From: Planctomycetota bacterium
GTDB lineage: Bacteria; Planctomycetota; UBA1135; GCA-002686595
Assembly (NCBI GenBank): GCA_028823395.1
Contig: JAPKBO010000013.1
Span: forward strand, 1 to 33,172
Reading direction: 5' to 3'
Length of the DNA stretch: 33,172 nucleotides
Part shown: piece after piece, positions 14,499-15,435 of the stretch
Layout of the letters: the number at the start of each line of letters is the position of its first letter
How positions within the stretch are numbered: position 1 is the first letter of the stretch
Program-made: the position numbers and the translations under genes
Notes under the pieces: generated by a model
The model's input: only the letters and a program-made list of their open reading frames with translations
Databases searched by the model: none
What the model was told of the DNA's origin: nothing

Positions 14499-14963
14499 CT
14501 AGGATAACGAGTCTTCGTCCGGAAGAAGAAGGAATGGATGCGGGAGAAGGACCCCCATGGATGTCACCCACGGCTCGGCTTCAGTTCCAGCCATCACGAC
14601 GCGCATGTCCGCGCCAAATTCAGCCAACACCTGACGGCAGGCGCCGCAAGGCGTCACGGGGCCAGCAGTTTTGGTGACAACAGCCACAGCCACAATCTTG
14701 CGCTCGCCCGTCGCGGCCACGGCCGCGGCCACAGCGGCACGCTCCGCACATTGTGTCAGCCCGTAGCTGGCGCTCTCAACGTTGACCCCAGCAAACACCT
14801 TGCCACTTTCCATGCGTACTGCAGCCCCCACGGGGAAGCCTGATTCCTTGCACATGGCGTGCGGCAACGCTTCGCGTGCGGCAGCGAGAAGCTCTACATC
14901 GGCCTGGGTCAAAGCTTGTTCACCCCCACTAGAAGGGGGTGTCGTCGTTGGGTTCGGACTCAT
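14499..14963 (-). CDS. cdd: Cytidine deaminase
   Basis: Converts cytidine or deoxycytidine to the uridine form in pyrimidine salvage; a zinc enzyme of the small tetrameric class. Seen: SGFPVGAAV (substrate loop), [18 protein letters not shown] with the first zinc Cys and the catalytic Glu (CAE), and [13 protein letters not shown] with the other two zinc Cys. The ATG at 14963 gives 154 aa, has GTGAGG about 9 bp upstream and overlaps the DUF669-like gene by 35 bp in another frame. The first 20 residues have no counterpart in the family, so a TTG near codon 19 (LTQADVELL), behind GGGGGTGA, is a real alternative. A longer reading to 15026 is unlikely. It sits between a putative ssDNA-binding protein and ligA. 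Confidence 0.9.
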
Positions 14964-15435
14964 GCCCCTGAGCCTCACCCGTAGCCGACCCTTCGTCAAT
15001 GTCCGTCTGCTCTTCCTTGCCAGCACCTGTCAGAGCTTCCTCAGAGAGGGGAGCCCAACCCGCAAAAGGAACCGACAGGCGCTCCACCCGGCGGCCCGTT
15101 TCGGGCTCCTCCCAGACCTCCGGGAAGACCTCAACCAGAGCCTGACGCCCCTCTAAATCCTCGGGATGCACGTCGAGGTATCCCGACACATCAAATCCCA
15201 GGACTCCCAGGACAAACTTAACCCGCTGTACTCCCCTCTCGCTCCAGGTCAGGGAGTCCCAGGCAGCTGTTCGCCCGGCATACTCCCCGTCGAGTACTGC
15301 GAGCCGCAGGCTCCATCTCACGGCCCCGTTGCGTGCTTCGCCCGGACGCACTTCAGCGATCCTGCAGGCGTAGGATCCGGGAGGGATGGCAACAAAGGAC
15401 TGGGTGTCCTGTACTTGGCCGAAATCGAGTTCCAT
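14929..15435 (-). CDS. DUF669-like putative single-stranded DNA-binding protein with SSB-type tail
   Basis: A 168-aa protein resembling DUF669, a family best known from phage recombination modules. Seen: SFVAIPPGSYACRIAEVRPG (about 13-32), a WSLRLAVLDGEYAGRTAAWD core (about 41-60), KFVLGVLG (73-80), GRQALVEVFPE (97-107) and GRRVERLSVPFAGWAP (114-129). An acidic, disordered tail follows and ends EPNDDTPF. That end closely matches the DDDIPF tip by which bacterial SSB recruits replication and repair proteins. Role inferred: ssDNA binding in replication or repair. It is the first gene of a run with cdd and ligA. The start is well supported: AAGGAG lies 5 bp before the ATG. It could instead be a domesticated phage gene; no other phage genes are nearby. 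Not a canonical Ssb: no clear OB-fold SSB motif. Confidence 0.65.
   Translation of the reverse strand: MELDFGQVQDTQSFVAIPPGSYACRIAEVRPGEARNGAVRWSLRLAVLDGEYAGRTAAWDSLTWSERGVQRVKFVLGVLGFDVSGYLDVHPEDLEGRQALVEVFPEVWEEPETGRRVERLSVPFAGWAPLSEEALTGAGKEEQTDIDEGSATGEAQGHESEPNDDTPF

Follow-up and report, generated by a model that had tools for sequence, protein, structure and literature searches.

A probable phage-type single-stranded DNA-binding protein encoded upstream of ligA across a class of Planctomycetota

The DUF669 gene carried by a 33,172-nucleotide stretch of Planctomycetota DNA (the window; contig C335 of a genome that is 85% complete) probably encodes a domesticated phage-type single-stranded DNA-binding protein (SSB), which is kept throughout the class and would share host docking partners with the canonical SSB. 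The evidence suggests a captured viral gene that now serves the DNA replication or repair of its host. If this is true, a phage replication protein has gained a permanent place beside an essential replication gene throughout a class, and an unannotated core gene of that class can be given a function. The situation would further provide a naturally occurring test of the SSB tip, with two unrelated OB proteins per cell bearing the same docking peptide, and with some lineages having dropped that peptide from only one of the two. Among the papers mentioning DUF669 that the literature search covered, no title or abstract deals with DUF669 as a core gene of a chromosome, and in the passages retrieved it figures as a phage protein.

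The gene occupies positions 15435..14929 of the minus strand, from an ATG at 15435 to a TAG stop at 14931-14929, and encodes 168 amino acids. The earlier note, which had placed an open reading frame at 14929-15435 without naming the strand, was exact in these limits, and both sequence motifs that it quoted are present, as is the EPNDDTPF end (the C-terminal letters read SEPNDDTPF). Its assignment to DUF669 was also correct: the protein matches PF05037 (DUF669) with E=1.5e-6 and 28.8 bits, above the Pfam gathering cut-off of 21, and the PHROGs families labelled 'single strand DNA binding protein' agree. DUF669 was the sole match in Pfam, with none to PF00436 (canonical SSB), and NCBIfam gave no match to the protein. 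Among 45 aligned orthologues, 37 match PF05037 at E <= 0.01. Three parts can be distinguished in the protein: a predicted OB-fold core of about residues 14-130 (15046..15396, minus strand), delimited by an AlphaFold2 model and by conserved columns, which include W41, W59, D60, R71 and K73; a disordered acidic linker of about residues 134-163 (14947..15036, minus strand; pLDDT <50 at 134-166), which varies among orthologues in both length and sequence; and an SSB-type C-terminal tip, D164-D165-T166-P167-F168 (14932..14946, minus strand), which matches the end of the SSB of the same genome and the tips of orthologues. Two genomes of the same genus carry copies 92% and 91% identical to that of the window, and near-identical loci were found in Planctomycetota MAGs. 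The sample consists of MAG contigs from incomplete genomes, with start codons picked by alignment.

The AlphaFold2 model, built from 20 aligned sequences, has a pLDDT mostly >90 over residues 20-130 and a b1-b2-b3-a-b4-b5 topology (strands 20-33, 39-47 and 56-64, helix 69-78, strands 98-109 and 116-121), while the tail falls to pLDDT <50 from residue 134. In a Foldseek comparison of this model with the PDB, PrgE of pCF10 came out on top (8s4s, E 1.8e-6, 13% identity) and its DNA-bound form, 8s4t, was third; SsbA of B. subtilis and S. aureus came after PrgE. Among viral models, the matches were DUF669 phage proteins. The OB fold anticipated in the earlier note is thus the predicted one, and we are confident that the modelled core is close to those of ssDNA-binding proteins. 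The assignment comes from predicted structure only, because neither the single sequence nor a 45-row profile found a credible relative in PDB sequence searches. PrgE binds ssDNA and dsDNA equally well and forms filaments (PMC11137577); since it is the closest solved fold, the specificity of the DUF669 protein for ssDNA is uncertain. Although PrgE is the best fold match among solved structures, it belongs to a plasmid conjugation operon, and the text of the paper names no acidic tail (PMC11137577). Membership of the window protein in the PrgE family was indicated neither by a PDB sequence match nor by the setting of its gene, which is a chromosomal cdd-ligA run.

The DUF669 gene was found in 90 of 101 relatives and in 138 of the 154 genomes of the class, nearly always as a single copy, with two matches in a few. 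Outside the class, matches occur in 12 of about 272 Planctomycetota genomes, mostly weak and three of them strong. On a gene tree of 115 proteins the family labels require 8 changes, where the minimum is 7 and the mean after shuffling is 48. DUF669 is a vertically inherited core gene of the class. The second SSB-like protein that the earlier note had proposed for "this lineage" is no peculiarity of it, the gene being a class-wide hallmark; the hub role and the binding of RecO, RecQ, PriA or LigA that were envisaged there are putative. Within the genus, dN/dS of the core is 0.03-0.05, which indicates strong purifying selection; the tail gives about 0.8-3, which is near neutral, from few sites lying partly in an overlapping frame. 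The gene does not behave as a prophage gene, as its neighbours are housekeeping genes and its presence is not patchy. Two copies per genome were seen in G007 (L064 and L065), neither of them tipped, and in G069 (L102 and L114), where one copy is tipped (GEIPF) and the other is not.

In the window, the gene leads a run on one strand in the order DUF669-cdd-ligA-ECF sigma. The cytidine deaminase gene cdd (14499..14963, minus strand; NCBIfam TIGR01354 above cut-off) is followed after 10 nt by ligA, which encodes the NAD-dependent DNA ligase (12356..14488, minus strand; NCBIfam PRK07956/TIGR00575 above cut-off), and the last gene of the run encodes an ECF-type sigma factor (11634..12290, minus strand; Pfam PF07638 above cut-off). 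With its likely ATG at 14963, cdd shares 35 nt (14929-14963) with the end of the DUF669 gene, and an overlap of about this length, in different frames, occurs in three genomes of the same genus; this arrangement suggests translational coupling. The cdd-ligA run described in the earlier note is confirmed, and the linkage of DUF669 to ligA is found well beyond the window: at 36 loci with enough downstream sequence, neighbours were located by tblastn, and ligA lies downstream of DUF669 on the same strand within 5 kb at 32 of them, in families f1, f4, f5, f6, f7 and f8 (the identity of LigA was verified in four families). The gene cdd stands between DUF669 and ligA in f1, f4 and f8, and in f2 it follows DUF669; in f7 and some f6 genomes DUF669 directly precedes ligA. 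The ECF sigma gene is kept beside ligA in f1 loci. In the immediate annotated DUF669 neighbourhoods of the class, neither Sak4 nor an integrase was found. Elsewhere in the window, an open reading frame of 245 amino acids at 17408-18145 (plus strand), without a Pfam match, lies beside sulfatase and M19 dipeptidase genes.

The C-terminal tip was compared among 115 DUF669 orthologues. The last two residues are PF in 61 of them and PY in 3, while 4 more end in F but not in PF, and 47 have no terminal F or Y. A P[FY] tip is thus present in 64 of 115. The chance rate was taken from 182 other open reading frames on the same, orthologue-bearing contigs, where a terminal F occurs once and PF not at all. 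By family, the tip is found in 26/28 proteins of f6, 4/6 of f7, 1/2 of f8, the single protein of each of f2, f3 and f4, and 30/62 of f1 (plus 4 with another terminal F), and in none of the 14 of f5. Acidic residues are most frequent at positions -4 and -5 (58% and 47%). All 26 tipped f6 proteins keep P and F unchanged, and 24 of them carry I, L or V at position -3, amid tails that are scrambled further in from the tip; the tip is therefore under selection where present, yet it is often lost, with 18 or more changes of state along the gene tree. Given such frequent absence and switching, docking cannot be the core function of the protein. Overlap with the start of cdd was rejected as a general cause of tip conservation, since f6 and f7 keep the tip with no cdd found adjacent. 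The conservation of a D-D-x-P-F end, which the earlier note had proposed to check, is consequently confirmed in part: the tip occurs far above chance, but in 64 of 115 orthologues only, and in none of f5. The objection that it had raised against its own proposal, namely that orthologues might lack an F-terminated tail, holds in part.

A canonical SSB (PF00436) is present in 143 of the 154 genomes of the class. Replacement of that protein by DUF669 was accordingly rejected, and the DUF669 protein counts as a second SSB-type protein, as had been suggested. In the window genome the canonical SSB is intact and encoded separately (G000:C241, L154 at 8877-9191); it ends in EADDTPF, so that its last five residues are those of the window DUF669 protein, which bears out the description of the latter tip as SSB-type. 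The two proteins are alike in their OB fold (predicted for DUF669), disordered tail and terminal D/E-x-PF, but they belong to different sequence families, and the tip is not universal among DUF669 orthologues. Almost all f1 SSBs end in D-T-P-F, T replacing the usual I or V at -3, and at this position the DUF669 tips of the family show T, S, A, D, M, E, G or Q. The SSB of most other families of the order keeps I or V; in f3, f6, f7 and f8, where it does so, the DUF669 residue is, with few exceptions, I, L or V. Across 58 genomes with both proteins, the -3 residue is aliphatic in both in 29, in neither in 27 and discordant in 2. This agreement (56/58) gives a Fisher p of 3e-14, yet on the tree it corresponds to 2-4 independent events, for which reason a strong statistical claim of covariation was rejected. 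The DUF669 tip thus appears to mirror the host SSB tip at -3, a match that is suggestive, not proven. In f5 the SSB retains DDVPF and DUF669 is tipless. One genome, G009, has five SSB-family matches (contigs C6, C57, C54, C38 and C34) compared with one in most relatives.

DUF669 had been described as best known from phages, which is right but leaves out that SSB function of a phage member is already proven. Hutinet et al. 2018 (PMC5928155) demonstrated that the DUF669 protein of phage HK620 (HkaK/Abc1) is an SSB and the partner of Sak4; its binding to ssDNA as an oligomer is demonstrated there, and its last six residues (NDYPPF) are required for the binding of Sak4 to SSB-coated ssDNA. The HK620 and window proteins have in common the DUF669 domain and an acidic PF tip (NDYPPF and NDDTPF, respectively). 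The HK620 gene, however, lies beside sak4 in a phage, whereas the window gene is chromosomal, class-wide and beside ligA. Named phages yielded only weak relatives of the window protein, and viral contigs yielded three matches, none of them tipped and one a fragment. L295 and L296, which are among the strongest outgroups, belong to mobile elements and resemble the window protein in their core (38% identity for L295) and in their tips, EEDLPF and EKLPF, respectively. In contrast to the window gene, they do not neighbour ligA; in both, DUF669 directly adjoins Sak4 (AAA_24, phrog_124), and a RecD2 helicase is present, together with a PD-(D/E)XK exonuclease and a primase in L295 and an integrase in L296. 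A Sak4-DUF669 pair is also annotated in a Salmonella phage, and in two other phages an AAA-domain gene precedes DUF669. A Sak4 family member above cut-off was found in 3 of 61 relatives, one of them marginal, and Sak4 was accordingly rejected as a present-day partner for most genomes. The window genome gave no match to the Sak4 family, so its DUF669 protein is not part of a working Sak4-SSB pair. From the spread of the DUF669 family we infer that transfer went from phage to host.

Taken together, we propose the following course of events. The line probably began with a phage SSB whose gene adjoined that of the annealase Sak4 and whose tip recruited Sak4. In the ancestor of the class, the gene would have settled upstream of ligA and become a core gene; Sak4 would then have been lost, and the tip kept where host partners were usable and lost where it was not needed. 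In the present-day protein, the OB-fold core would bind the ssDNA that the replication fork or repair gaps leave exposed, and the tip of the flexible acidic tail would attach the protein to those host enzymes for which the canonical SSB tip is already a docking signal. RecO appears to be the best candidate partner, because it is present (in 30 of 30 good genomes) and is an established reader of the SSB tip, as PMC5928155 also states. The linkage to ligA points to a possible role at sites of gap filling and sealing. A bolder version, which is possible but which we put forward only tentatively, holds that two parallel SSB systems exist throughout the class: the tip of the captured phage SSB would have evolved to mirror that of the host SSB, both proteins would compete for or share the same genome-maintenance enzymes, and the phage-derived one would be coupled to what LigA does in replication or gap repair.

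The same fold could instead belong to a PrgE-type OB protein that coats both ssDNA and dsDNA and serves as no hub, its PF tip being mainly autoinhibitory or DNA-mimicking and competing for the OB fold. The rank of PrgE among the Foldseek matches, its equal binding of both kinds of DNA and its filaments (PMC11137577) fit such a protein, and many orthologues do live without a tip. We nevertheless consider it unlikely, as f6 proteins end in P and F in 26 of 28 cases despite a scrambled tail, 56 of 58 genomes show the tip and that of the SSB in the same class, a match for which simple acidic autoinhibition has no need, and the tip of the HK620 homologue serves docking (PMC5928155). Another view starts from the gene neighbourhood and makes the protein a dedicated LigA cofactor that recruits this enzyme to nicks and gaps, the tip being a side feature and the linkage reflecting a physical partnership. 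The persistence of the linkage in six families, with cdd intervening only in some, speaks for it. Linkage is not contact, however; in several genomes the distance to ligA is 1.5-4.6 kb, the two genes are unlinked at 4 of the 36 loci, and nothing here supports LigA as a reader of SSB-type tips, which makes this view rather improbable. Finally, since DUF669 is a phage family and the nearest outgroups lie in mobile modules, the gene might be a prophage remnant used only by mobile elements, with no role for the host. Vertical inheritance across the class, mostly in single copy and in a fixed chromosomal place beside ligA, the low dN/dS of the core and the immediate annotated neighbourhoods free of Sak4 and integrase render this very improbable.

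Two further observations concern the Sak4 family and phage DUF669 proteins. In G073, a match of 88.5 bits to AAA_24, the family that holds Sak4, lies at C226:11975-12712 (L297), possibly within a prophage, and the same genome has a chromosomal DUF669 gene. In two phage DUF669 proteins, L301:2989-3480 and L302:2983-3576, DDLPF stands a few residues before the end (DDLPFDIED and DDDLPFDEDDDWEDDDED), which suggests that a terminal position may not be needed for this SSB-like motif to work.
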